From a virus, in IMG/VR virus record IMGVR_UViG_3300024358_000009, positions 124,001 through 188,000 of that record: a stretch of 64,000 nucleotides of DNA, one strand, 5' to 3'. The notes under the pieces were generated by a model. The model was not told the DNA's origin and made no database searches. It saw nothing but the letters and a program-made list of their open reading frames with translations. Position 1 is the first letter of the stretch; the number at the start of each line of letters is the position of its first letter. Of the stretch, positions 2,452-28,124 are shown piece by piece. The position numbers and the translations under genes are program-made.

Positions 2452-3093
2452 TTATTCTTCGTTCTTGCCAAGGTTTTCAATTTCAACACCAAGATATGAA
2501 GCAATCTGAGAAGCTACAGTCTGAATTGGATCTACATTATTAAGAGCAGGAGCGTTTAAAGCTACCTCTTCCTTAACTTCTGCATTTTCCAAAACTTCTT
2601 CGGTAGCAACTACTTCTGCCTTGTCTTCTTCAGCCATAGCTGCTTTTGGACAGGAGCAAGTTTCTTCTTTCTCATTCATGTCTTCTTTAGGCATCATTTC
2701 TGCTGCCTTCTTCAACATCATGAGTTCTTCATTCATCTTCTTGGCAGCTGCTTCATACTCTGCCATTTTCTTAGAAAGATAATCACTCTGTTTGGCAACA
2801 ACGCCAGCAAATGACTCATCTTCAAGGTTGTTAGTAAGAGCGACAATCTCTTCTGCTTCGGTCTTGGACATGCCAAGCTTTTCTGCAACAAGAGAAATTC
2901 GATCACTCTTCTTCTTTTCATCTTTCATCTTCTGCAACTCTTCGGTAGCTTTAGCAAGCTCCTGCTGCATAAGATTGGCCTTGGCAACAGCTTCAGAAAG
3001 TTCAGATTCAAGTTTTACTGTATTTTCAACAGCTACTTCAACCTTCTTTTCCATCTCAGTTGCCTCAACCTTTTCGACAATCTGTTCAGACAT
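2452..3093 (-). CDS. Free scaffold protein from an in-frame internal start
   Basis: Inside the protease-scaffold gene an ATG at 3093 (MSEQIVEK) is preceded by AAGGAG (complement of 3103-3108) nine bases upstream, an excellent ribosome site exactly at the junction between protease and coiled-coil domains. Translation here would give a 213-residue scaffold-only product, the arrangement known for lambda C/Nu3. The site is seen directly; its use is inferred. Confidence 0.5.
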   Translation of the reverse strand: MSEQIVEKVEATEMEKKVEVAVENTVKLESELSEAVAKANLMQQELAKATEELQKMKDEKKKSDRISLVAEKLGMSKTEAEEIVALTNNLEDESFAGVVAKQSDYLSKKMAEYEAAAKKMNEELMMLKKAAEMMPKEDMNEKEETCSCPKAAMAEEDKAEVVATEEVLENAEVKEEVALNAPALNNVDPIQTVASQIASYLGVEIENLGKNEE

Positions 3094-3894
3094 TGAAATA
3101 TTCTCCTTAACTTCTGGAGTCTCAAGACTTTCATACCCCAAATCGATAGTTTTTGCTTCGGTTTGGAGTATCACGCTTTCGGGGTTAGCCGGTTTTCGCA
3201 CAAGTCCTTTTCCAGAAAATATAATATTTCGTAAAACACGACCTATCTTCTGGTTACCGTAAACACCAGTACCGCCATACGCCCTTAAATATTTAGTTAA
3301 GAATGAAGTGGCTTCATTTCTAGCTATAATTCTAGTTCTTGCTCCATCAGTAACCGCATAATCAAAATTGCTAAACAAAGCTTCCATGGAAACAAACCAG
3401 CCACCTTTCGGTATTTCATTAACTATATTTTGTATTTGTAATTTTTTTTCTGGATTTTCCCATTCTTTATAAATTACAGCAGAAGTAACAATGTTGTAAT
3501 CTTCAGGTGCAGATTCAGCATTAATCGGCAATCCATTTTCATCTGCTGGATAACAACCAGTAATATGACCAATGATAATATCTTGATTGTGTTCTAAATT
3601 AAACGGTTTGTCTTCTGGGGTATTTCTAGCAGTCCACATTTCTTGAGAATCAAAAACATCATCGTTTTTATTCCAGCCAGTACTAACCAAAATAGACTTT
3701 AAATAATATAAGTCTTCTTGGTTTTTGTTTTCTGCTTTTGCTATTTCAGCTACTGTTCTATTAGATTTGTTTTTAACAAACTCTTGTTCTTGTGCAGAAG
3801 ATACAGAAGCCACCATATCAAAAGCAATAGAATTACTTGCTTTAACAAGTTCAGAAACACCGTCTTCAATTTCTGTTTTATATGCTTCAATCAT
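2452..3894 (-). CDS. Prohead protease with C-terminal scaffold domain
   Basis: A 480-residue fusion. Residues about 60-250 form a prohead-protease-like domain: LEHNQDIIIGH carries the candidate catalytic histidines and GGWFVSMEALF the candidate serine in the usual VSmE context of phage maturation proteases. Residues about 265-480 are acidic, Lys/Glu/Ala-rich and strongly coiled-coil, as in scaffold or core proteins, with a CSCP cysteine pair late in the tail. The protease would clear the scaffold and trim capsid subunits. It overlaps the next upstream gene by 4 bp. An internal start (separate entry) could make free scaffold. Confidence 0.8.
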   Translation of the reverse strand: MIEAYKTEIEDGVSELVKASNSIAFDMVASVSSAQEQEFVKNKSNRTVAEIAKAENKNQEDLYYLKSILVSTGWNKNDDVFDSQEMWTARNTPEDKPFNLEHNQDIIIGHITGCYPADENGLPINAESAPEDYNIVTSAVIYKEWENPEKKLQIQNIVNEIPKGGWFVSMEALFSNFDYAVTDGARTRIIARNEATSFLTKYLRAYGGTGVYGNQKIGRVLRNIIFSGKGLVRKPANPESVILQTEAKTIDLGYESLETPEVKENISMSEQIVEKVEATEMEKKVEVAVENTVKLESELSEAVAKANLMQQELAKATEELQKMKDEKKKSDRISLVAEKLGMSKTEAEEIVALTNNLEDESFAGVVAKQSDYLSKKMAEYEAAAKKMNEELMMLKKAAEMMPKEDMNEKEETCSCPKAAMAEEDKAEVVATEEVLENAEVKEEVALNAPALNNVDPIQTVASQIASYLGVEIENLGKNEE

Positions 3895-4646
3895 GGTTCA
3901 CCTCTTTTAAAAATTACACCAAACCAATTAAGTATTCTTTTATACCAAGGTATATAACCATTTATATATAAATATGTTGTGTCATTACAGTACTGAGGTT
4001 TGTCTTCAAATTCCGGTAAATACTCAGTTGTATTTTTACTTTCAAATAAAATATTATCTGAATATTTATTAACTTTTATTTTATTTTTTATATCATAACT
4101 TAATGACTTTGGCCAAGCAGATTCTAATACATCTCTATGATTATTGCTTAATACTGGTGGCCAAGAGTGTTTATTATTTGTTATTGCAAAAACAGCTGTT
4201 TTCCAAGCTTCTAAATAGTCATTATTCCATTTAAATACAGATGCTAAAAAACCATCATTAATTTGTTTTTCAAAAATTTTATAAGCAACTGGACTAACCC
4301 TTGTATCTGTAGCATGAACAATGATAAAGCAACTATCTCCGTGTTCTTGAAAAATAATAGGAAAAGCTTTTCTAAAATTTATACTCTCATAAAAACTGGT
4401 ATTTCCTACTTTGTCCAAAGTTTCTCTGTAAATAATATCATGAATCAATTTCCTTTTTTTTAAATCGTCTAAAATCCATTTTTTAGAAATTTCTGGATCA
4501 GCCCACAAAATATAAATAATGGGGCTGTGTTTAAAGAAAATTCTACATCTATAGATATGCTGAACATTATCTATTAGTTCGTGATATCTACGATGCAGAG
4601 TTATCAATATTATCGGTCTTTTGTAAGCCGATTGTGTGCATTGCAT
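3891..4646 (-). CDS. Uncharacterised protein within the head module
   Basis: A 251-residue protein that overlaps the portal gene by 59 bases at its start and the protease gene by 4 bases at its end, so it is embedded in the head operon. The N-terminal RPIILITLHRRYHELI and the later IIYILWADPE and FIIVHATDTR have the alternating strand pattern of a GT-A glycosyltransferase, but I see no clear DxD motif. The C-terminus ends in an aromatic, possibly membrane-associating segment (YIPWYKRILNWFGVIF). A glycan-acting role is a weak inference. Confidence 0.6.
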   Translation of the reverse strand: MQCTQSAYKRPIILITLHRRYHELIDNVQHIYRCRIFFKHSPIIYILWADPEISKKWILDDLKKRKLIHDIIYRETLDKVGNTSFYESINFRKAFPIIFQEHGDSCFIIVHATDTRVSPVAYKIFEKQINDGFLASVFKWNNDYLEAWKTAVFAITNNKHSWPPVLSNNHRDVLESAWPKSLSYDIKNKIKVNKYSDNILFESKNTTEYLPEFEDKPQYCNDTTYLYINGYIPWYKRILNWFGVIFKRGEP

Positions 4647-6720
4647 ATACAGAAGCTTGTATCTTTCTTGTTACTTCTGATGTTGGTAAATTTCCAGTTT
4701 TTTCTAAGTATTTAGCCATGCAAGTCTTAAAGAAATCTTCTACTTCAAAAGGTATTTCTATTTTTTCTTTTAATGAATTATGAACAAAAGCTTTTGTTAC
4801 TTTTTGATCTGGTTCAACTCTGCAAAGCAAAGCAAACTTTATATGTTCAAATTCATTTATTTGAGCAACAGAAAGATCCCTAAGAGTTTTCTTGTTAACA
4901 CTTTTTAAATATGCGGGCTGTACAATTTCAGCTATAGTTTTTTGGGTTTGCTCTGCCCAATTAAGTCTATCTACAAAATCTGATGCCATGGCTGGTTTAA
5001 TAGTTCTTCTCTTCCTTGGTAGCGTATCTGTCTTTCCTTGAGGTCTGCCTTGTCCAGATTCGCCCTTTGGTTGCTCTTCTGTATTTTTAGTTGGACTTGT
5101 TTGTATAGATAAACTTGCATTTGGATCTTTTATTCCAAAATATTCTGGAGATAACATACCTAATTGAGCAAATAACTTTTCAACACTTTCTTTGTGCTGT
5201 GGACTATGGAATGGTGAAGCTTTAGGAGGAAGCATATCTTGTTTTCTATAATCTCGTTCTCTGCGTAATCTAACGCTTTCTATTTCTGGTATAAGATTAA
5301 ATCTTTCCTGAACAGCTTCTTCGCTAATAATATCTCTATCTGCAAGTTCTATTAACAATCTCTTTTCAGCAGCTTCGTCGGATAAAGTTTGATGATCAAA
5401 GACTATTTGGGCTGGTAATTTAAACCCCATAGCCATTTGAACAAGTTTAATTTCTCTTTCCCAAAATTCAGTTACAACATCTCTGCCGTACTGAAGTCTT
5501 TCAATTAAAGTTCTCAAACTAATGTAGTTATTTGAAAATCCAGAACCTACTGGCAATCCTGTTAATGAAGGAGGAATACCAAGTCCTGCATAAATAGAGT
5601 TTAAGATAGGTTTATATTTTTCTTCGCCTAAGAAATTTACTAAATCTGTTTTTGTTTCAACAACATCTATTTCTGGACCCCAAATAAGATCCATGCTGCC
5701 ACCACCAACATTGTTCATAAGCATATCAGCAAGTCTGCTTATAGCTTCCTCAGTTGGTAAAATACGATGTTCTAACGAACCCAACTTCCAAAGTCTAATG
5801 TGACTGATAGCACCGTCTAATGCTGCTAAATCAGCAAGCTTCATTTTTTCTAACATTTGCAAATCTTTTAGCAAAGCATATAACATCGGCTTTGCCCAAA
5901 CTTGCCAGTCATCTCTTTTATAATAGAGGGCAACCGTTTTATTAACATCTAGTGGCATTAAAAAACCGCCACGAACAGCATAATCATCCATTTGAGTTGG
6001 CAATGATTTTATAATTTCTTTTTCAATATCAGACTTGGGATTTTTTAACTTCCTTGAAAAATTTTCTGTAACCCTAATGCCAAAACGAAAAGCTCTTGGT
6101 CCAATAAATGGGGCAATTTCTTCGCCGTATACCTCAATAGAGGTTGGATTATAAATTGTATATTCCCAAGGTACTTCTGATTGTTTGGGTTTTTTAATAA
6201 AATTCTTTTTGGTTTCAGCTGCCATTCCTTTTTGAATAATATCTATTTCTTCTGGTTTTAAAATTGCTGTTGCTCTTTTAATAATTACATTTCCAGCACG
6301 ATAAAGTAAATTAAGTATTCTTTCTGTTCTTTCGTTACCACGAATTTTTTTAAACCACTCTTTATAAAACTTTTCAATCTTTGGGTTTGGATGTACTAAA
6401 TCTACTCCTTGACAAGCAAACTCACTCATCATATCTATGGTATTACGAACTATACCTATACGCTCATACGCTTGCATACAAGCAGTCATAATATCTTTGT
6501 CTTTTACTGGTATTTGTTCATTCGGTCTAAAAAAATCGTAATCCCTACGATCAAAACCTTCACGCACAGAAATATTTGGGGATTCAACATTTTTAAAACT
6601 GCTAGAAGCAACTGTCTTCTTTACGACATGACCTTGATTATTGCTTTTTGCTATAGCTTTTTCTTTAGATTCAAGGCTGTTTTCTTCCCAAGTAACAAAA
6701 AGATCTTTTTTTTCGCTCAT
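4588..6720 (-). CDS. Portal protein
   Basis: At 710 residues this is a long portal, the dodecameric vertex ring through which DNA is packaged. Support: it lies between the large terminase and the prohead protease; residues about 60-130 carry a portal-type start (YDFFRPNE, then ERIGIVRNTIDMMSEFA); and YAGLGIPPSLTGLP followed by an aromatic/Ser region (GFSNNYISLRTLIERLQ) matches portal stem regions. The C-terminal 180 residues are charged and proline-rich, then fold again, and may be a species-specific extension. No frameshift seen. Confidence 0.85.
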   Translation of the reverse strand: MSEKKDLFVTWEENSLESKEKAIAKSNNQGHVVKKTVASSSFKNVESPNISVREGFDRRDYDFFRPNEQIPVKDKDIMTACMQAYERIGIVRNTIDMMSEFACQGVDLVHPNPKIEKFYKEWFKKIRGNERTERILNLLYRAGNVIIKRATAILKPEEIDIIQKGMAAETKKNFIKKPKQSEVPWEYTIYNPTSIEVYGEEIAPFIGPRAFRFGIRVTENFSRKLKNPKSDIEKEIIKSLPTQMDDYAVRGGFLMPLDVNKTVALYYKRDDWQVWAKPMLYALLKDLQMLEKMKLADLAALDGAISHIRLWKLGSLEHRILPTEEAISRLADMLMNNVGGGSMDLIWGPEIDVVETKTDLVNFLGEEKYKPILNSIYAGLGIPPSLTGLPVGSGFSNNYISLRTLIERLQYGRDVVTEFWEREIKLVQMAMGFKLPAQIVFDHQTLSDEAAEKRLLIELADRDIISEEAVQERFNLIPEIESVRLRRERDYRKQDMLPPKASPFHSPQHKESVEKLFAQLGMLSPEYFGIKDPNASLSIQTSPTKNTEEQPKGESGQGRPQGKTDTLPRKRRTIKPAMASDFVDRLNWAEQTQKTIAEIVQPAYLKSVNKKTLRDLSVAQINEFEHIKFALLCRVEPDQKVTKAFVHNSLKEKIEIPFEVEDFFKTCMAKYLEKTGNLPTSEVTRKIQASVYAMHTIGLQKTDNIDNSAS

Positions 6721-6769
6721 GATAATCCTACTTATTAAATTGTAATTGGATCATAATTGAATTACACCA

Positions 6770-10329: not shown

Positions 10330-11168
10330 GTGCTTTCCTTCTGTTCTTCCATAGTGTCAGCGTTCAAAATTGGCAAATCGGAGTTCCCATCCTCATAAAC
10401 ATGGGCAGATCCTAGTCTTTCCATCTCCTTAGATGACACATGCTTCATGATTTCCATGTGTCGCCCCATAAGTTCTCTGTTCTCTTCGTCTTGTAACTGC
10501 TTGATAATAGCTAAAAAGCTCTGTTTTGACGACTCAATTCTTGTAACTCTCTGCTCTCTAGTGGCTTTTAGGTCTTTTAGTAGTGCCTGATGCTTCTCTT
10601 CAAGCTTAATGAACTCACTAGATCGTGCTTGCTCTGCCTGTTTTGCTGCCTGAATCTGTGCTTCGAGCGATAAAACATACTCTCTGTCTTGTTCTGACAT
10701 TGCAGAACGGTCTGGAAAAGTAGAAAGATAGTCATTTTGCATAGAGACAAGCCTAGCTATCTCTTGTGCTGCACTGTATTTTGCTTTCGCATTACGGTGC
10801 ATCATAATTTCAAACTTTATAAGCAGAGAAATTTGAGTTTGTTCGGTCACTAACACATCATCTTTGAACTGAGCCATATACTGAGCGTACTTTTCTTCAT
10901 AATAAAGCAACTCATTGGGCGAAAGTTCTTCTGTTAACTGCTGCCAAGTCTTTGTTCTCTTAATATCCTTAGCTATTTCAACTTCTTTTTCGTTTAAAGA
11001 AGCCAATCGGCGATCAGCCTTGAGCATTAGTTCGCTCTGTTTAATCACTCTCTTTACTTGAGCCTCGCTCTTATTTAATAGAGTAGCAATTTCTGTAACG
11101 CCCATGGTTTTGGACAAGTTAAGAATTTGCTCCTTGTCATCACTCGTTACTGTCGTCTTCCTCGCCAT
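10326..11168 (-). CDS. Putative terminase small subunit (HTH plus coiled coil)
   Basis: A 280-residue protein with an N-terminal helix-turn-helix (MGVTEIATLLNKSEAQVKRVI, residues about 21-40) followed by long charged helices and a coiled coil to about residue 240. HTH plus oligomerising helix, and position upstream of the large terminase in the packaging operon, fit a DNA-recognising small terminase. It is longer than most small terminases. A transcription regulator cannot be excluded. It overlaps the dehydratase by 4 bases and the sigma gene by 29. Confidence 0.5.
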   Translation of the reverse strand: MARKTTVTSDDKEQILNLSKTMGVTEIATLLNKSEAQVKRVIKQSELMLKADRRLASLNEKEVEIAKDIKRTKTWQQLTEELSPNELLYYEEKYAQYMAQFKDDVLVTEQTQISLLIKFEIMMHRNAKAKYSAAQEIARLVSMQNDYLSTFPDRSAMSEQDREYVLSLEAQIQAAKQAEQARSSEFIKLEEKHQALLKDLKATREQRVTRIESSKQSFLAIIKQLQDEENRELMGRHMEIMKHVSSKEMERLGSAHVYEDGNSDLPILNADTMEEQKEST

Positions 11169-11772
11169 TAGTTCTCCACTCCGAAAGAATGTCTTTTATA
11201 TAAATTTCTAATTGTTTTTTCTTGGCCTTACTTATAGAAACACCCGCCCTCAGTTGTAAATATACCTGTCTTAATTCTACTGGAAGTTTTTCGTCTATTA
11301 ATTCTAACATTTCTTGAGTGGCGACATCATTAATAATATCGGAATCTCTTTCTATACTTTTGTCGCTAACGCTTGTGATATCACATGGTCGCATTAAGTT
11401 TTGCTTAGAGGAATTTCTTTTTTTCCAAGCTTTATATTTATCGCAGTACTCGCCATTTCCATGATCGCCCTCTTCATGACAAATTTTACAGGGCGGATCT
11501 GAGCGGTGAAATTTATCTCTTTTAAAATTAATCAGTCTGTTTTTTATATGTGAGTACAAGAAATTTTCTAGGGGGCGTTTGTTGTCGTAACGAGCCATAG
11601 CCTCCAAGCCAAATATTCTGGCTTCTTGCCTAATGTCATTTATATCGAAATAACCAAAGGAAAACCCTTGGCCTAAAATTGAAACTATCTTGTCTATTAT
11701 TGTAATTACTTCATCTACATCAAATTTTTTAGTTTTCAGTTTTAATGTTTTCTTCGATGATTTTTTCGGCAT
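11140..11772 (-). CDS. T4 gp55-like late sigma factor with zinc-binding insert
   Basis: This 210-residue protein carries a sigma-70 region 2 signature: FDINDIRQEARIFGLEAMAR, then NFLYSHIKNRLINFKRDKF, the core-polymerase-binding and -10-melting helices. Between regions there is a Cys cluster (CKICHEEGDHGNGEYC) suggesting a zinc knuckle. The C-terminal part (LPVELRQVYLQLRAGVSISKAKKKQLE) resembles a degenerate region 4. This matches the gp55-like late sigma of T4-type phages rather than a housekeeping sigma. It is a candidate reader of late promoters for the head operon or of the GCGAATAAG promoters to the right. Confidence 0.75.
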   Translation of the reverse strand: MPKKSSKKTLKLKTKKFDVDEVITIIDKIVSILGQGFSFGYFDINDIRQEARIFGLEAMARYDNKRPLENFLYSHIKNRLINFKRDKFHRSDPPCKICHEEGDHGNGEYCDKYKAWKKRNSSKQNLMRPCDITSVSDKSIERDSDIINDVATQEMLELIDEKLPVELRQVYLQLRAGVSISKAKKKQLEIYIKDILSEWRTNGEEDDSNE

Positions 11773-11869
11773 CTTTTGGATCTGTTTCTGTTAGTTCGGC
11801 CTTTGTTTTTTCTGCCAGATCTTCTTGTGCTTTCGTACTTAATACAGTTATAATATTTTCATCTGTCAT
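11729..11869 (-). CDS. Small acidic protein preceding the sigma gene
   Basis: A 46-residue Glu/Lys-rich protein (starts MTDENIITVL) with a strong ribosome site (AGGAGG, complement of 11873-11878). It overlaps the sigma gene by 44 bases in another frame and is the first gene of the leftward operon, 21 bases from the divergent rightward gene. No domain recognised. Confidence 0.6.
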   Translation of the reverse strand: MTDENIITVLSTKAQEDLAEKTKAELTETDPKDAEKIIEENIKTEN

Positions 11870-11890
11870 TAAAACCTCCTGAGATGTAAT

Positions 11891-12091
11891 ATGGCTAGAG
11901 TCAGTTGGACGGAATCAATGTTGAAATTCGTAAGAGAAAATCATCATAGCATGACTGACAATCAACTTGCTCTTGCTTTATCTTCTATTATAGGCGTTCG
12001 TGTGTCAAGTCATAGCGTCAGAAACATTAGAGAAGAAAAGGGTTATACAAAATGGAAAAGGTCTTCAACCAAAGATCACCCCACATCGTAG
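11891..12091 (+). CDS. Small helix-turn-helix-like protein
   Basis: A 66-residue basic protein whose middle (MTDNQLALALSSIIGVRVSSHSVRNIREEKG) follows a helix-turn-helix pattern like those that recognise phage or intron DNA. It starts 21 bases from the first leftward gene, so it occupies the divergence point and could regulate both arms. It overlaps the next gene by 40 bases. Confidence 0.6.
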   Translation: MARVSWTESMLKFVRENHHSMTDNQLALALSSIIGVRVSSHSVRNIREEKGYTKWKRSSTKDHPTS

Positions 12092-12642
12092 TAGTTGACA
12101 ACTTCTACAAAGATCCAGACTCTATAGTTCGTTTAGCAGAAGAACAGGAGTATCAGCCACAGAGCAAATACTACAAGGGCGTTAGAACGGCGGAACGCTT
12201 TTTATTTCCATATGTAAGAGAAGAGTTTCAAAGACTTCTCAATTTGGAAATTACAGATTGGTTAAACCAGCCAATGAATGGCATTTTCCAGAAGACTAGT
12301 AAGGATGACCCTCTAGTGTGGCATAGTGATAGTCAAGACTATGCAGCTGCTATTTATCTAACTAAAGATGCTCCTGTAACTATGGGAACATCATTTTGGC
12401 AAGATACAAAGTTTGGGTGTAGAAGACCGCCTAGCCATCCACTTGAGAATAAGTCCGTTCAAGAGAGTGAAATCTACACAGAGTACAATCTTTTGCATAA
12501 AGACAATTGGCAGTTAGTTGATAAAGTAGGGGCGGTTTATAATCGACTAGCTCTTTGGGATGCAAAATTAATACATTCAGCTAGTGAGTATGGTTCAATG
12601 GATCGTTTAGTACAACTTTTCTTCTTTAGCGTCAAAAGATAG
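12052..12642 (+). CDS. 2-oxoglutarate/Fe(II)-oxygenase-like protein
   Basis: A 196-residue protein. The stretch VWHSDSQDYAAAIYLT gives the HxD metal pair, and LWDAKLIHSASEYG followed by RLVQLFFF gives the distal His and the Arg that would bind 2-oxoglutarate. The double-stranded beta-helix order is as expected, and the overall pattern resembles DUF6445-type proteins. Substrate unknown. It is followed after 8 bases by a second oxygenase, so the pair is probably co-transcribed. Confidence 0.65.
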   Translation: MEKVFNQRSPHIVVVDNFYKDPDSIVRLAEEQEYQPQSKYYKGVRTAERFLFPYVREEFQRLLNLEITDWLNQPMNGIFQKTSKDDPLVWHSDSQDYAAAIYLTKDAPVTMGTSFWQDTKFGCRRPPSHPLENKSVQESEIYTEYNLLHKDNWQLVDKVGAVYNRLALWDAKLIHSASEYGSMDRLVQLFFFSVKR

Positions 12643-12650
12643 GGCGAACT

Positions 12651-13211
12651 ATGAGAGCCTTTTGGCAATTCTGGGGAAGTTATTTTAGCAAAGAACAATG
12701 TGATGAGATTATTAACAAGGCGTTAACTATTCCGTCTATACAAGCAAGTACTTATGGGGCGGTTTCCGACCTCCGAAGTTCAAGAGTCAGGTGGATACAT
12801 AGGGGCGATTTGAGTTGGAATTGGATGTTTACGCATATAGAGAACATATTTAGAAGGGCGAATGGAGCTTTTGGGTTTGATCTTAACTATTTTCACGAAA
12901 TCCAGTTCACAGAATACGATTCAGCCTATGGTGGCCACTACGGTTGGCATGAAGACCTATTATGGGTTCCCAGAAACGATTCAGCAATTCAGCGTAAGCT
13001 CTCAATAGTCATACAGTTATCAGATCCAGCTGAATATACAGGGGGCGATCTTCAGTTTGATATGGCAGAAGAAAAGCCTGACGCTAATCATTTAAAGTTT
13101 CAAGGATCTGCTATTGTATTCCCTTCTTTTGTTAAGCATCGAGTAACACCTGTCGAAACTGGTCGTAGATACAGCCTTGTAACTTGGTACGAAGGACCGC
13201 CTTTCCGTTAA
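12651..13211 (+). CDS. 2-oxoglutarate/Fe(II) oxygenase, prolyl-4-hydroxylase-like
   Basis: A 186-residue protein of the PKHD/P4H type: HYGWHEDLLW supplies the HxD pair, YTGGDLQFD is the typical mid-domain strand, FVKHRVTPV gives the distal His and GRRYSLVTW the 2-oxoglutarate-binding Arg. All key residues are present, so it is likely active as a hydroxylase. Related genes are widespread in T4-like and cyanobacterial phages with unknown targets. It is the last gene before a long non-coding block. Confidence 0.85.
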   Translation: MRAFWQFWGSYFSKEQCDEIINKALTIPSIQASTYGAVSDLRSSRVRWIHRGDLSWNWMFTHIENIFRRANGAFGFDLNYFHEIQFTEYDSAYGGHYGWHEDLLWVPRNDSAIQRKLSIVIQLSDPAEYTGGDLQFDMAEEKPDANHLKFQGSAIVFPSFVKHRVTPVETGRRYSLVTWYEGPPFR

Positions 13212-13471
13212 GGGGCAACCGAGGAAGTTTAGGTAGTACATTTTGTTGTGTGGGTGGGGATTATGTTTGAACCGCCCACCCCCCCGGGGCCGGGCCGGGT
13301 CGGTAAGCTGGGCAAGATAAATACCCTAGGCAAGCCGTCGCCGTAAAGCCTTATACAATAAGCACTTAAGAAAAATAAAAAAAACAAAAAAATTTTTATC
13401 GCCATAACCCCTTACGCCATAACAACTTAAAATTATTTTAAAAATATTTTATAAAAAAAGTATTTTTGCTA
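13212..13471 (+). other. Non-coding block: GC-rich hairpin, then AT-rich tract
   Basis: No credible gene. At about 13236-13265 GGGTGGG can pair with CCCACCC, and an unusual G+C run (CCGGGGCCGGGCCGGG) follows, the most GC-rich spot I see in the window. From about 13370 the sequence becomes A/T-only for long stretches. A 9-mer CGCCATAAC occurs twice, 16 bases apart, near 13400. The mix could be a terminator plus regulatory or replication-start DNA; nothing proves either. Confidence 0.4.
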
Positions 13472-13500
13472 TTGTTTTTTATTTTATTGGACGATATACT
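13472..13500 (+). promoter_or_regulatory. Sigma70-like promoter for the ECF-like sigma gene
   Basis: TTGTTT at 13472-13477 and TATACT at 13495-13500 are separated by 17 bases, a good host-type promoter about 55 bases ahead of the sigma ATG. The leader holds a direct repeat GCAATGC-acttc-GCAATGC. This promoter differs from the GCGAATAAG class used downstream. Confidence 0.55.
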
Positions 13501-13556
13501 AATTACATAAGCAATGCACTTCGCAATGCTAACAGTAGTGAAAAGGAATTAGAATT

Positions 13557-14045
13557 ATGACCACTTCAATCGACTATGCAAAGATTACTGAAAAGCTTGT
13601 TTCCGCACTTGGCAAGAAAATACGCAACTATGCGGACTGCCAAGACATAGCTCAAAATATCCTAGTGTATGCTTTGCAAAGTTATAACCCTGCTATGGGA
13701 TCGGCTTTTGAAACGCACTGCTTTACTGTTATGCGTGGCAAGTCCATTGATTTCCTGAGAAGTAAATCCCGCAAGGGTAATCTGGTAAGCTGGGATATCC
13801 TTGAAGCTAATGACAATAATTCAGAAAAAACACTAGCACAAGGTATAGAAATTGCCGAAAAAACCTCCAAGTATAACCTATTGGAGATTGCAGAAGAATA
13901 CTGCAACGAACAAGAATATTTTATCATCCAACGCAAGCTTGAAGGCTTCGATGGATATGAAATAGCCAATATGCTAGGGGTTAGCCCAGGATATGTTAGT
14001 CAACAATTGTCAAGAGCAATAGAGAAAATGAAGGGGGGGTTCTAG
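13557..14045 (+). CDS. ECF-like RNA polymerase sigma factor
   Basis: A 162-residue sigma-70-family protein with only regions 2 and 4. Region 2: YADCQDIAQNILVYALQSYNP followed by AFETHCFTVMRGKSIDFLR. Region 4: YFIIQRKLEGFDGYEIANML and SPGYVSQQLSRAIEKMK, a helix-turn-helix that would read a -35 box. It opens the cluster of genes preceded by the two-box GAATAAG promoter, and itself has a sigma70-like promoter, which is the layout of a relay: host polymerase makes this sigma, which then drives the small-gene region. Pairing with that promoter is inferred. Confidence 0.8.
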   Translation: MTTSIDYAKITEKLVSALGKKIRNYADCQDIAQNILVYALQSYNPAMGSAFETHCFTVMRGKSIDFLRSKSRKGNLVSWDILEANDNNSEKTLAQGIEIAEKTSKYNLLEIAEEYCNEQEYFIIQRKLEGFDGYEIANMLGVSPGYVSQQLSRAIEKMKGGF

Positions 14046-14126
14046 GCCGAAATCGCCGATAGGCGATCTATCCGTTAGGCGGGTACTGATGAGGCCAGGA
14101 GTCCTTAATAGAAAAGGGAATTGACT

Positions 14127-14395: not shown

Positions 14396-14492
14396 ATTGG
14401 ATATCTTTATCTTATTATCCAAATATCTTTTTAAAAATATTTTATTTTTATTGTAAATAAATCTGCAAGCGTAGCGAATAAGATTATATAAG
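14396..14492 (+). promoter_or_regulatory. Composite two-box phage promoter, copy 1
   Basis: Starts with the conserved ATTGGATATCTTTATC segment, then an A/T tract, the upstream box TTGTAAATAA (14451-14460), and GCGAATAAG (14474-14482) followed by ATTATATAAG. Spacing between TTGTAA and GAATAAG is 19. It precedes the gene at 14523. Confidence 0.75.
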
Positions 14493-14522: not shown

Positions 14523-14681
14523 ATGGAAATTACTTGCTTGTGCGGAATTGATAATGAGGGAAATATAAACGATGGAATTATCTGCCATATGTGCGAAGGT
14601 CAACTGGCAGGGATGATAGAAAAATGGAATATCGAACAAGCCCTAATGGAAGAATATGAAAATAATTTAGAAAAGTTCTAA
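14523..14681 (+). CDS. Small Cys-rich acidic protein
   Basis: A 52-residue protein with CLCG near the start and ICHMCEG in the middle, a probable zinc-binding knuckle, followed by an acidic helix. An AAGGAG ribosome site precedes the ATG and a composite promoter lies 30 bases upstream. Confidence 0.65.
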   Translation: MEITCLCGIDNEGNINDGIICHMCEGQLAGMIEKWNIEQALMEEYENNLEKF

Positions 14682-14724
14682 ATATTTTCTGGTACAGGAC
14701 GAATAAGTATAAAAGGAGATAAAG

Positions 14725-15338: not shown

Positions 15339-15380
15339 TCCTAAATAAAAGCAGGGGGCAAGCGAATAAGAGTATATAAC
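15339..15380 (+). promoter_or_regulatory. Two-box phage promoter ahead of a structured RNA
   Basis: TCCTAAATAA upstream box, 19-base gap, GCGAATAAG (15362-15370) then AGTATATAAC. No gene follows for 500 bases; the transcript would cover the structured segment below. Confidence 0.65.
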
Positions 15381-15605: not shown

Positions 15606-15697
15606 AAATTGGATATCTTTATCTAATTATATTCTTTTAAAATTTTTTTATTTTGTTGTAAATAATTTTACCCTGCCAGCGAATAAGATTATATAAG
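15606..15697 (+). promoter_or_regulatory. Composite two-box phage promoter, copy 2
   Basis: ATTGGATATCTTTATC, A/T tract, TTGTAAATAA (15656-15665), 19-base gap, GCGAATAAG (15679-15687), ATTATATAAG. First member of a tandem pair; the next copy begins about 60 bases downstream. Confidence 0.75.
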
Positions 15698-15757
15698 CTT
15701 GGTGGTAATGCTTAAACCATCTATGCGAATGAGTATAGAATGAGGGGAGCCTGGACT
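15698..15757 (+). ncRNA. Short putative RNA between tandem promoters, unit 1
   Basis: About 60 bases without a gene, bounded upstream by promoter copy 2 and ending in GAGCCTGGA (15747-15755) right at the start of copy 3. The same nonamer ends the two other such units, so the boundary is conserved while the interior is not. Confidence 0.35.
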
Positions 15758-15851
15758 ATAATTGGATAATCTTATCTTATTATATTATTTAAAATAATTT
15801 TATTTTTTTTGTAAATAAATCATAAGCACTAGCGAATAAGTATATATAAGA
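15758..15851 (+). promoter_or_regulatory. Composite two-box phage promoter, copy 3
   Basis: ATTGGATAATCTTATC, A/T tract, TTGTAAATAA (from 15809), 19-base gap, GCGAATAAG (15832-15840), TATATATAAG. Directs the gene at 15881. Confidence 0.75.
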
Positions 15852-16079: not shown

Positions 16080-16120
16080 TTATAAATATTTTAATCTTAC
16101 AAGCGAATAAGTTAGTATAA
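16080..16120 (+). promoter_or_regulatory. Two-box phage promoter
   Basis: TTATAAATAT, 19-base gap, GCGAATAAG (16103-16111), TTAGTATAA, overlapping into the ribosome site of the Gp88-like gene. Confidence 0.65.
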
Positions 16121-16131
16121 AGGAGAATGAT

Positions 16132-16815
16132 ATGAAAATGGAATTGAATACTGTTGAGATTAATACTTCTAAGACTCAGAAGATGCCATGGGAAAGTTGG
16201 GATTTACCAGCTTGGATGTGCAAGACTGGTGCTAAGTTAGTAAAGGTAAAGGGTTCTATATGTGAAGGATGCTATGCATTAAAAGGACGATACATATTTG
16301 GAACGGTGAAGAATGCAAACTTAAAAAGATTTGATCAAATAAAAGATATAAATAACTTGGAAGATTGGAAAAATTCTTTCATAAGCTTATTCAAGTCTAA
16401 GCTAAAAAGACTTTCAGCAGAAAAAAGGTTTTTCAGATGGTTTACTAGTGGGGATTTGCAATCCGTAGATATGTTAGTAGCAATTGTAAATATTGCAAAA
16501 GCTATTCCAGAAATTCAATTCTGGTTGCCAACAAAAGAACATGGCATAATAAGGGAATACCAAGCCATACATGGTGAATTCCCTGCAAATCTTAATGTTC
16601 GTGTTTCAATGTTCATGGTCAATCAGGAACCAAGTAAGGGCTTAGGTTTACCTACCAGTACAGTAGTTAATTCCCCTGATGATATGAATGATAAACATCA
16701 GAACTTGTGCCCTGCTAGTCTTGAACAATTCAACGGCAAAGCCGAGGTTAATTGTGGAGATTGCAGGAAATGCTGGGATAAGAATGTAGATAATGTGGCA
16801 TACATATACCACTAA
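16132..16815 (+). CDS. Gp88-family phage protein
   Basis: A 227-residue protein matching the phage Gp88 family pattern: MPWESWDLPAW near the start, then GSICEGCYALKGRY, a central FRWFTSGDLQSVD, FWLPTKEH, and a C-terminal Cys group (VNCGDCRKCWD). Family members occur in mycobacteriophages and others and have no established function; the conserved Cys and GDLQS motifs suggest a metal-dependent enzyme. All family motifs are present, so it looks intact. The start could also be the Met two codons later. Confidence 0.8.
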   Translation: MKMELNTVEINTSKTQKMPWESWDLPAWMCKTGAKLVKVKGSICEGCYALKGRYIFGTVKNANLKRFDQIKDINNLEDWKNSFISLFKSKLKRLSAEKRFFRWFTSGDLQSVDMLVAIVNIAKAIPEIQFWLPTKEHGIIREYQAIHGEFPANLNVRVSMFMVNQEPSKGLGLPTSTVVNSPDDMNDKHQNLCPASLEQFNGKAEVNCGDCRKCWDKNVDNVAYIYH

Positions 16816-16820
16816 GAATT

Positions 16821-16860
16821 CTGGAAATAATTTTCTTTGGGAAACGAATAAGTAAGTAAG
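16821..16860 (+). promoter_or_regulatory. Two-box phage promoter
   Basis: CTGGAAATAA (16821-16830), 19-base gap, ACGAATAAG (16844-16852), then TAAGTAAGAGG running into the ribosome site at 16859. Confidence 0.6.
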
Positions 16861-17740: not shown

Positions 17741-17818
17741 AATTAGATATCTTTATCCAAATATAATTTTAAAAATTTTGTAAATAATTTTTTATATATA
17801 GCGAATAAGAATACAGAG
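17741..17818 (+). promoter_or_regulatory. Composite two-box phage promoter, copy 4
   Basis: ATTAGATATCTTTATC, shorter A/T tract, TTGTAAATAA (from 17778), 19-base gap, GCGAATAAG (17801-17809), AATACAGAGG. First of the second tandem pair. Confidence 0.7.
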
Positions 17819-17866
17819 GGTAAACCCGCCATGGGAAACTATGGGATGGGCAGAGCCTGGACTATA
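17819..17866 (+). ncRNA. Short putative RNA between tandem promoters, unit 2
   Basis: About 50 bases with CCATGGGAAACTATGGGATGG-like repeats of ATGGGA, ending in GAGCCTGGA (17853-17861) at the start of the next composite promoter. No gene fits. Confidence 0.35.
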
Positions 17867-17955
17867 ATTAGATAACTTTATCCGATTATCTTTTTATAAA
17901 ATTTTTATTTTTTTTGTAAATAAATTATAACTAATCACGAATAAGATTATATAAG
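17867..17955 (+). promoter_or_regulatory. Composite two-box phage promoter, copy 5
   Basis: ATTAGATAACTTTATC, A/T tract, TTGTAAATAA (from 17914), 19-base gap, ACGAATAAG (17937-17945), ATTATATAAG. Directs the gene at 17986. Confidence 0.75.
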
Positions 17956-19880: not shown

Positions 19881-19961
19881 AATTGGATATCTTTATCTAA
19901 TTGTAATTTTAAAAAATTTTTGTAAATAATTTTTATTAGCTGACGAATAAGTATATATAGA
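19881..19961 (+). promoter_or_regulatory. Composite two-box phage promoter, copy 6
   Basis: ATTGGATATCTTTATC, A/T tract, TTGTAAATAA (19920-19929), 19-base gap, ACGAATAAG (19943-19951), TATATATAG. First of the third tandem pair. Confidence 0.75.
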
Positions 19962-20042
19962 GAGGAGTAACTATTAAAATTTGAGTTATGAGTGGGAGTT
20001 CCTGCTTTCCAAAAGGAGAGGATGAGGGGAGCCTGGAAACTA
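19962..20042 (+). ncRNA. Short putative RNA between tandem promoters, unit 3
   Basis: About 80 bases without a convincing gene, ending in GAGCCTGGA (20029-20037) at the next composite promoter. Contains GGAG-rich segments. Confidence 0.35.
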
Positions 20043-20131
20043 ATTAGATATGTTTATCTTATTATCTATTTAAGAATTTTTTTATTTTTATATAAATAAA
20101 TCTGTATGGCCAACGAATAAGATTATGTAAG
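20043..20131 (+). promoter_or_regulatory. Composite two-box phage promoter, copy 7
   Basis: ATTAGATATGTTTATC, A/T tract, ATATAAATAA upstream box, 19-base gap, ACGAATAAG (20113-20121), ATTATGTAAG. Directs the gene at 20148. Confidence 0.7.
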
Positions 20132-20147: not shown

Positions 20148-20327
20148 ATGAAATATGAAATAACAAGAGAATTCATCGGTGGTTTATTGAATGGGTTAAT
20201 CATTACCCAAACCATGAATAGTGATTGTGGTTATTATGTTGGGCAAGTTGTGAAAAATCCATATGGTAACACTTCTCCATATAAAATTTTGGAAATTAGG
20301 AAATATTCTCCAATGGTCGGCGAATAA
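20148..20327 (+). CDS. Hypothetical small protein
   Basis: A 59-residue protein (starts MKYEITREFI), beta-rich. The Glu-stop at its end is the GAATAA of the next promoter. Family unknown. Confidence 0.65.
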   Translation: MKYEITREFIGGLLNGLIITQTMNSDCGYYVGQVVKNPYGNTSPYKILEIRKYSPMVGE

Positions 20328-20337
20328 GTCTATATAG
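20297..20337 (+). promoter_or_regulatory. Two-box phage promoter inside a gene end
   Basis: TAGGAAATAT (20297-20306), 19-base gap, GCGAATAAG (20320-20328), TCTATATAG. The spacer CCAATGGTCGGC is nearly repeated in the next promoter. Confidence 0.65.
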
Positions 20338-20628: not shown

Positions 20629-20670
20629 TTGGAAATATTTGCCAATGGTTGGCGAATAAGTATATGTAAG
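20629..20670 (+). promoter_or_regulatory. Two-box phage promoter for the DUF932-like gene
   Basis: TTGGAAATAT (20629-20638), 19-base gap, GCGAATAAG (20652-20660), TATATGTAAG. The leader of about 50 bases before the ATG includes GGGCTGAAAGCCC, a short hairpin. Confidence 0.7.
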
Positions 20671-21868: not shown

Positions 21869-21942
21869 GGGGATGTAGACCAACAGGCAGAGTCAAAGGA
21901 CTTAAAATCCTTCCAGTATGGGTTCGACTCCCATCATCCCTA
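21869..21942 (+). tRNA. tRNA-Leu(UAA)-like, class I shape
   Basis: Acceptor GGGGATG/CATCCCT (G1-U72 wobble), D-stem GAC/GTC, anticodon stem AAGGA/TCCTT with loop CTTAAAA (anticodon TAA), T-stem ATGGG/CCCAT with loop TTCGACT, discriminator A. CCA is not encoded. The variable loop is only about 5 bases, whereas bacterial tRNA-Leu has a long variable arm. It shares its D, anticodon and T arms with the tRNA at 28052. Confidence 0.85.
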
Positions 21943-22049: not shown

Positions 22050-22090
22050 TTATAAATATTTTTACCTCTGTATCGAATAAGATTATATAG
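22050..22090 (+). promoter_or_regulatory. Two-box phage promoter ahead of non-coding RNA C
   Basis: TTATAAATAT (22050-22059), 19-base gap, TCGAATAAG (22073-22081), ATTATATAG. No gene follows until 22335. Confidence 0.65.
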
Positions 22091-22281: not shown

Positions 22282-22321
22282 TTTAAAATATTTTTGGTTG
22301 GTGAGCGAATAAGACTATATA
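22282..22321 (+). promoter_or_regulatory. Two-box phage promoter
   Basis: TTTAAAATAT, 19-base gap, GCGAATAAG (22305-22313), ACTATATAAAGGAG leading into the ribosome site of the gene at 22335. Confidence 0.65.
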
Positions 22322-22823: not shown

Positions 22824-22937
22824 ATGTCAAATGCTTATATTAAGAGGAGTGTTAAAAAGTGGAGAAAAGTGGTGAAAAAGCCCAAAGAAAACCCCTCAAA
22901 TAATACATCGAACAAAGTAAATAATTCACCCTCATAA
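22824..22937 (+). CDS. Small basic peptide
   Basis: A 37-residue Lys/Ser/Asn-rich frame (starts MSNAYIKRSV) after AAAGGAG. Its 3' third is also the upstream box of the next promoter. About 140 bases ahead of it carry no gene, only A/T tracts and CCCC runs. Confidence 0.45.
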   Translation: MSNAYIKRSVKKWRKVVKKPKENPSNNTSNKVNNSPS

Positions 22938-22955
22938 GCGAATAAGTATATAAGG
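22915..22955 (+). promoter_or_regulatory. Two-box phage promoter
   Basis: AAGTAAATAA (22915-22924), 19-base gap, GCGAATAAG (22938-22946), TATATAAGGAG. The ribosome site overlaps the end of the box, so the leader must be very short. Confidence 0.7.
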
Positions 22956-25233: not shown

Positions 25234-25410
25234 ATGAAGTTAGATATTAAAAATATGTGCGTAGTATCTGGAAAAAACAAATATCAAATTTCTTTTGATG
25301 ATATAAACATCGGCGATCAAGTATACAACCCATTATCAGATGTTCTAATTCATATAGATGAAGATGATGACATTGAATATGTAAATAATAATTATTTTAA
25401 AATCTGTTAA
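25234..25410 (+). CDS. Hypothetical acidic small protein
   Basis: A 58-residue protein (starts MKLDIKNMCV), beta-rich, with AGGAGG upstream. Its stop is part of the next promoter's upstream box. Confidence 0.6.
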   Translation: MKLDIKNMCVVSGKNKYQISFDDINIGDQVYNPLSDVLIHIDEDDDIEYVNNNYFKIC

Positions 25411-25444
25411 TATTTTTTAGTAAACTGCGAATAAATATATAGGA
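25404..25444 (+). promoter_or_regulatory. Two-box phage promoter
   Basis: CTGTTAATAT (25404-25413), 19-base gap, GCGAATAAA (25427-25435), TATATAGG. From here rightward the downstream box is usually GAATAAA rather than GAATAAG. Confidence 0.6.
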
Positions 25445-27832: not shown

Positions 27833-28061
27833 TGGCTGGACTGTTAGCTTAAAAGACAATTCGTGTTTGAATAAACTATCATATCAAGAAAAGAAAAAAT
27901 GGTGGAATGATATAAAAAAAGTAACACCAATTCAATTTTCAGTAAAGGAAAAGGCAGATACAGCGAAGATATTATTAGAGAGAAGAACGAAATTTGAGTG
28001 GATTGTTACTAACACTCTTTTTCTTGGTCACTATCACGAAAAGAGACAAAGGGGCGTGTAG
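27816..28061 (+). CDS. Hypothetical basic protein
   Basis: An 81-residue protein (starts MIEMGNGWTV), helical and Lys-rich, with AAAGGAA upstream. Its last three codons lie inside the acceptor stem of the following tRNA. Confidence 0.6.
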   Translation: MIEMGNGWTVSLKDNSCLNKLSYQEKKKWWNDIKKVTPIQFSVKEKADTAKILLERRTKFEWIVTNTLFLGHYHEKRQRGV

Positions 28062-28124
28062 ACCAATGGCAGAGTCAAAGGACTTAAAATCCTTCAAGTA
28101 TGGGTTCGACTCCCATCACGCCTA
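28052..28124 (+). tRNA. tRNA-Leu(UAA)-like, second copy
   Basis: Acceptor GGGCGTG/CACGCCT (G1-U72 wobble), anticodon stem AAGGA/TCCTT with loop CTTAAAA (TAA), T-stem ATGGG/CCCAT, discriminator A, no encoded CCA, short variable loop. The D, anticodon and T arms are nearly identical to the tRNA at 21869, but the acceptor stem differs at several paired positions in a compensatory way. Confidence 0.85.

Follow-up and report, generated by a model that had tools for sequence, protein, structure and literature searches.

Two predicted phage sigma factors with separate candidate promoter classes in a large virus genome

Results

In a 64,000-nucleotide stretch of viral DNA (hereafter the window; bases 124001-188000 of the 206,326-base IMG/VR record IMGVR_UViG_3300024358_000009), two divergently oriented genes encode phage sigma factors: an extracytoplasmic function (ECF)-like sigma of 162 amino acids (13557-14045, plus strand) and a minimal late-type sigma of 210 amino acids, here called gp55-like (11140-11772, minus strand). 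From a piecewise reading of the entire record and comparison with relatives, we consider it probable (roughly three in four) that the phage combines the host core RNA polymerase with these two sigma factors, each with its own promoter class. In this programme, the host holoenzyme would first transcribe the ECF-like gene from a conserved sigma70-like promoter. The ECF-like product would place region 4 on a GTAAATA-type -35 box and region 2 on a CGAATA -10 box, and promoter architecture, presence/absence and co-variation suggest that it turns on about 30 promoters, most of them rightward, that serve small and probably early or middle genes. By similar reasoning, the region-2-only sigma would read a lone GGTGTA box before virion genes, and may amplify its own synthesis after basal or read-through expression.

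Both sigma open reading frames (ORFs) of the initial annotation proved to be real. The 162-amino acid protein matched Sigma70_r2 (3.6e-7) and Sigma70_r4 (1.1e-5) in Pfam, and its AlphaFold2 model (mean predicted local distance difference test score of 73, with a low-confidence linker at residues 74-103) had the Mycobacterium ECF sigmas sigL and sigH as its best Foldseek matches in the PDB. As in ECF (group IV) sigmas, regions 2 and 4 are its sole sigma regions, with a linker between them, and its predicted regulon carries a two-box promoter of fixed spacing. No anti-sigma factor for it was identified; a systematic search was not made. The 210-amino acid protein matched only Sigma70_r2 (5.4e-4, under the Pfam cut-off), and Pfam recognised no region 4 in it. 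Its profile matched the ECF profile across region 2 (E 7e-6), and a Cys-rich insert follows, with a CxxC...C stretch conserved in most gp55-like members. These two genes gave the only region 2 matches in the whole record, in which Pfam detected no multisubunit RNA polymerase; the control for the T7-type polymerase family search was silent.

Promoters of the window phage (G000) are mainly GTAAATAA and CGAATAAG, and a -35 box stood at a fixed distance when all 34 CGAATAAG sites of the record were aligned. The signal, [AG]AATA[AT]-N14-CGAATA, occurs at 31 sites in this genome. When the spacer was varied, [AG]AATA[AT]-N(n)-CGAATA was found at n=14 in 31, 31, 27 and 6 copies in the ECF-bearing G000, G002, G004 and G003, respectively, with no more than 2 sites at each of the other spacers tested (n=10-18), and in zero copies at every such spacer in the ECF-less G006 and G007. 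The two-box signal proposed earlier for the presumed ECF regulon was therefore recovered at a fixed spacing and far above chance. The plus strand holds 31 of the 33 sites of the record (with T counted besides A and G at -20), and the sites often lie 24-50 nt before a start codon. Among 2.9 million viral contigs, the only ones with more than one copy of the exact consensus of this promoter type (type A) were those of the window phage.

A scan of viral contigs with the gp55-like sigma yielded 56 loci, several of them copies of one phage. Annotated phages searched with both sigma proteins offered no usable relative, and we know of no cultured member of this large-phage group. In a low-GC group of these phages, the gp55-like gene has a divergent ECF-like gene about 0.6-1.8 kb upstream, and GC-rich relatives are without it. 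The ECF family was absent from six gp55-like-bearing records, each searched whole (G006, 93 kb; G007, 149 kb; and the shorter G008, G012, G013 and G014), and the two-box motif was absent at every ECF-less locus examined. The ECF-less G007 has a 327-amino acid ORF that strongly matches Sigma70_r4 (4e-11; G007:C1:100723-100872, in L102), perhaps a replacement sigma. Upstream of the gp55-like gene in the GC-rich, ECF-less L063 and L062 there are repeated strand-biased words (TGAGACAAT with ACAGGCACTCTG; AAGCGAAAAA), which perhaps belong to another promoter system.

Among the ECF-bearing phages, promoters before orthologous genes differ by ECF type. The type B group has TTGAATAA and ACGAATAAT and the type C group CTAAATAA and ACGAATA, while L031, with a gp55-like sigma 80% identical and an ECF-like sigma only 33% identical, has GTAAATA and GGCGAATAnATATA. 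Counted from the C of CGAATA as position 0, base -20 is A in 93/95 type A and C sites and G in 86/89 type B sites. The region 4 helix tracks this base, reading SPGYVSQ, STSTISK, SEGRISQ or SNGRISQ with A and SLGSAHG or SQGSAFG with G. At one gene whose promoters were compared in four phages, -22 is constantly G and -20 varies with type. On the ECF tree, each of the three types is a single group, and this grouping is not contradicted by the gp55-like tree. L038, with a gp55-like sigma 82% identical to type B and promoters of type C, was considered as a natural experiment; the trees gave no support for a conflict, the gp55-like tree placing it with type C (90/95), so that it is suggestive at most.

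Two phages, L049 and L070, are closely related to each other. Their gp55-like proteins are 100% identical, their virion arms are ∼98% identical in DNA, their ECF proteins, encoded at the same place, are only 47% identical, and both retain type B promoters. Fine alignment placed the boundary of the divergent stretch 170-220 bp upstream of the ECF start codon rather than at that codon, suggesting that the ECF gene and its promoter were exchanged together. We tentatively raise the possibility that the phage ECF sigma acts as an exchangeable specificity cassette, swapped with its own promoter, and that in the longer term the -35 boxes of whole regulons switched along with the ECF (A against G at -20). 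If so, cassette exchange would be a natural record of sigma-regulon co-evolution, perhaps driven by host defence or competing phages.

A different signal is enriched before virion genes. When all hexamers upstream of genes on the virion strand were ranked by enrichment, GGTGTA came first in G000, G002, G003 and the ECF-less G007, with sense/antisense counts of 8/0 (P 1.6e-8), 7/0, 6/0 and 6/0, respectively. Reading the list of aligned GGTGTA sites by eye revealed no shared second box or -35 box, and the lone box fits a region-2-only sigma as its predicted reader. In the window, minus-strand GGTGTA boxes stand before the portal gene (4588-6720) at 6763-6768, a distance of 48 nt, and before gene 2452-3894 at 3915-3920, a distance of 26 nt. 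Where the flanking sequence suffices, most gp55-like relatives have GGTGTAA at the corresponding place before the portal gene. The T4-type TATAAATA was rejected as a late box, since it is not concentrated upstream of genes and GGTGTA is the enriched box.

We then considered how the two sigma genes themselves may be expressed. The sigma70-like promoter annotated before the ECF gene (TTGTTT-N17-TATACT; 13472-13500, plus strand) is present, and the pattern TTGnnT-N17-TAnnnT recurs upstream of ECF in 10 of 17 phages, the window phage included, with a spacer of exactly 17 bp (shuffling gave an expectation of 0.84). This conserved consensus match supports placing the ECF gene under a host-sigma promoter, as at the start of an SPO1-type cascade. 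Also as annotated, no regulon box precedes the ECF gene in the window phage, in which CGAATA was not found upstream. A two-box site does lie upstream of ECF in 5/17 phages (most type C phages and L044/L045; 0.02 expected), which suggests self-activation there.

Strand blocks in the record are long, with a minus-strand virion block at record positions 69049-135869 (42 ORFs by our own simple caller, so that gene calls are approximate) and plus-strand blocks elsewhere. The gp55-like gene had been described as heading the virion operon. A 46-amino acid acidic ORF (11729-11869, minus strand) precedes it and overlaps its start, so that it is the second gene of its operon. A similar small ORF precedes the gp55-like gene in most relatives examined, and could encode a partner or regulator of this sigma. 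At the divergence point, the start codons of the genes on either side are only ∼20 bp apart (11870-11890), which leaves no free intergenic promoter space there.

The first two-box promoter of the predicted regulon, GTAAATAA-N14-CGAATAAG, lies at 14453-14482 on the plus strand, with position 0 at 14475. Further plus-strand sites are at 14678-14707, 15341-15370, 16823-16852, 20299-20328, 20631-20660, 22052-22081, 22284-22313 and 22917-22946, and the site at 16082-16111 precedes the GP88-family gene 16132-16815, for which orthologous promoters were compared. Other plus-strand promoters form pairs ∼130-190 bp apart before one gene, with non-coding DNA between them: 15658-15687 with 15811-15840 (pair 15658-15840), 17780-17809 with 17916-17945 (pair 17780-17945), and 19922-19951 with 20092-20121 (pair 19922-20121). 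The paired layout recurs before orthologous genes in relatives and possibly produces small RNAs. A two-box-like site also lies inside a 127-base repeat, record positions 1-127 having an exact copy at 149318-149444 (window 25318-25444).

Directly after the ECF coding sequence is a candidate type II hammerhead ribozyme (14045-14100, plus strand; Rfam RF02276, 29.7 bits, E 0.015, with the gathering score of 37 not reached). Its minimum free energy fold has the three expected stems and the GAAA and CUGAUGA cores, with ordinary stability (z -1.6), and no such candidate was found in L031, L038, L044 or L054. Two tRNA-Leu (TAA) genes lie further along the plus strand, at 21869-21942 and 28052-28124.

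Discussion

The initial annotation had proposed a relay from host polymerase to the ECF-like sigma and from there to the gp55-like sigma. The first two steps of this scheme are supported, as the ECF gene has its conserved promoter and the predicted ECF regulon has a fixed architecture, occurs in ECF-bearing phages only and co-varies at its -35 box. The last step fared differently: in none of 17 phages does the stretch between the start codons of the two sigma genes contain a two-box site on the gp55-like strand, and GGTGTA instead stands before the gp55-like operon in L036, L040, L047, L062 and L067. Control of the second sigma by a promoter of the first is thus not supported near the gene, and a distant promoter with read-through is conceivable. 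Since some relatives have GGTGTA before the gp55-like operon and none has the two-box type, self-amplification is suggested. A strictly linear relay would be a stronger version of the two-sigma programme and is compatible with it. Its first arrow is supported, the late promoter class is separate and SPO1 offers a known two-sigma programme (PMC9429907), but given the sites just described we regard it as unlikely.

Other readings reassign the two-box promoters. Their layout resembles characterised ECF promoters and sigma28 promoters, and they might be read by a host alternative sigma (sigma28/FliA-like, TAAA-N15-GCCGATAA, or a host ECF), with the phage ECF acting otherwise. Type A promoters, TAAA-N16-GCGAATAA, are indeed near the sigma28 consensus as generally known, and bacterial genome contigs searched for a host gave no relative, leaving room for such a factor. 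However, type B promoters (TTGAATAA) have a disrupted TAAA box at almost all sites and keep CGAATA, the spacer is 16 rather than the 15 of sigma28, and the signal is present only with the phage ECF gene, whose product has the matching two-domain anatomy; we judge a host reader improbable. Very improbable, in our view, is that CGAATAAG is a MotA-like activator box beside a housekeeping -10 (TATATA), the ECF sigma not being the reader. A TATATA stretch does follow CGAATAAG at many sites, but this downstream TATA varies more than the two boxes do, and rigid -35/-10 spacing is typical of one sigma. The shortest distance from the C of CGAATA to a start codon is 24-25 nt; with CGAATA as the -10 and a start 6-9 nt on, the ribosome binding site is kept in these shortest leaders, several of which would lose it if TATATA were the -10. 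Common ancestry of region 2 in both sigmas might allow their roles to be exchanged or shared, such that the gp55-like sigma reads the two-box signal. This appears extremely improbable, as phages without the ECF retain the gp55-like sigma and GGTGTA but not the two-box signal, and the gp55-like protein has no recognised region 4 to read a -35 box.

Several points nevertheless weigh against the programme of two phage sigmas with separate promoter classes. Absence of the two-box motif is confounded with base composition and phylogeny, because most ECF-less relatives that have sufficient flank are rich in GC. As every ECF type corresponds to one clade, neither the sites nor the phages are independent, and the promoter differences amount to about two independent specificity switches. 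GGTGTA precedes only a minority of virion genes in the window phage (8/42), and the C-terminal half of the gp55-like sigma, with its helices, is poorly resolved. All function is read from sequence, and a host alternative sigma is conceivable.

If correct, the analysis provides candidate promoter codes for two sigmas of a large-phage group, obtained from sequence alone. It also offers natural variants in which the -35-reading helix of a sigma and up to ∼30 promoters per phage differ in step, making joint specificity change of sigma and regulon directly testable in vitro with few purified proteins. Such compact sigma/promoter pairs may serve as orthogonal parts.

The predicted sigma pair is of a known sort (SPO1; phage 7-11), and its apparent specificities are new. 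Gp47 of Salmonella phage 7-11 contains a region 4 and works with host core on the promoter GTAAtg-(16)-aCTA, while phiEco32 gp36 is without region 4 and reads a single tAATGTAtA (PMC8948821). The ECF-like sigma shares with SaPh711_gp47 a region 4 and a bipartite promoter, here GTAAAT-(16)-CGAATA, but homology is weak and confined to region 2 (hhalign E 3e-4, probability 40%). Phage 7-11 has one sigma, for late genes, whereas here the ECF sigma would serve small genes and the second sigma late genes. PhiEco32 gp36, with its single-element promoter, is functionally like the gp55-like sigma with GGTGTA, in which no region 4 was recognised, but homology is not detectable (hhalign E 0.15) and the boxes differ. 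Bacterial ECF sigmas (sigL, sigH and sigE) resemble the ECF-like sigma in region 2 and 4 architecture, fold and two short boxes ∼16 bp apart, with box sequences here that are its own.

T4 gp55 is likewise small, with region 4 not recognised and a single box without a -35 serving virion genes. The label gp55-like, taken over from the initial annotation, holds as functional analogy only, because homology to T4 gp55 is not significant (hhalign E 0.22). T4 gp55 structures fell outside the top 50 Foldseek hits, and the enriched box is GGTGTA[AT] rather than the T4 late box. No T4-type or bacterial sliding clamp was matched in the record, with the T4-family control silent. SPO1 has two phage sigmas and two promoter classes (gp28 middle, gp34 late) (PMC9429907); its sigma families differ from those here, and no middle-sigma promoter precedes the late sigma gene here. 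In conclusion, the two sigmas find their nearest functional parallels in phage 7-11 gp47 and phiEco32 gp36, and SPO1 is the nearest two-sigma programme.

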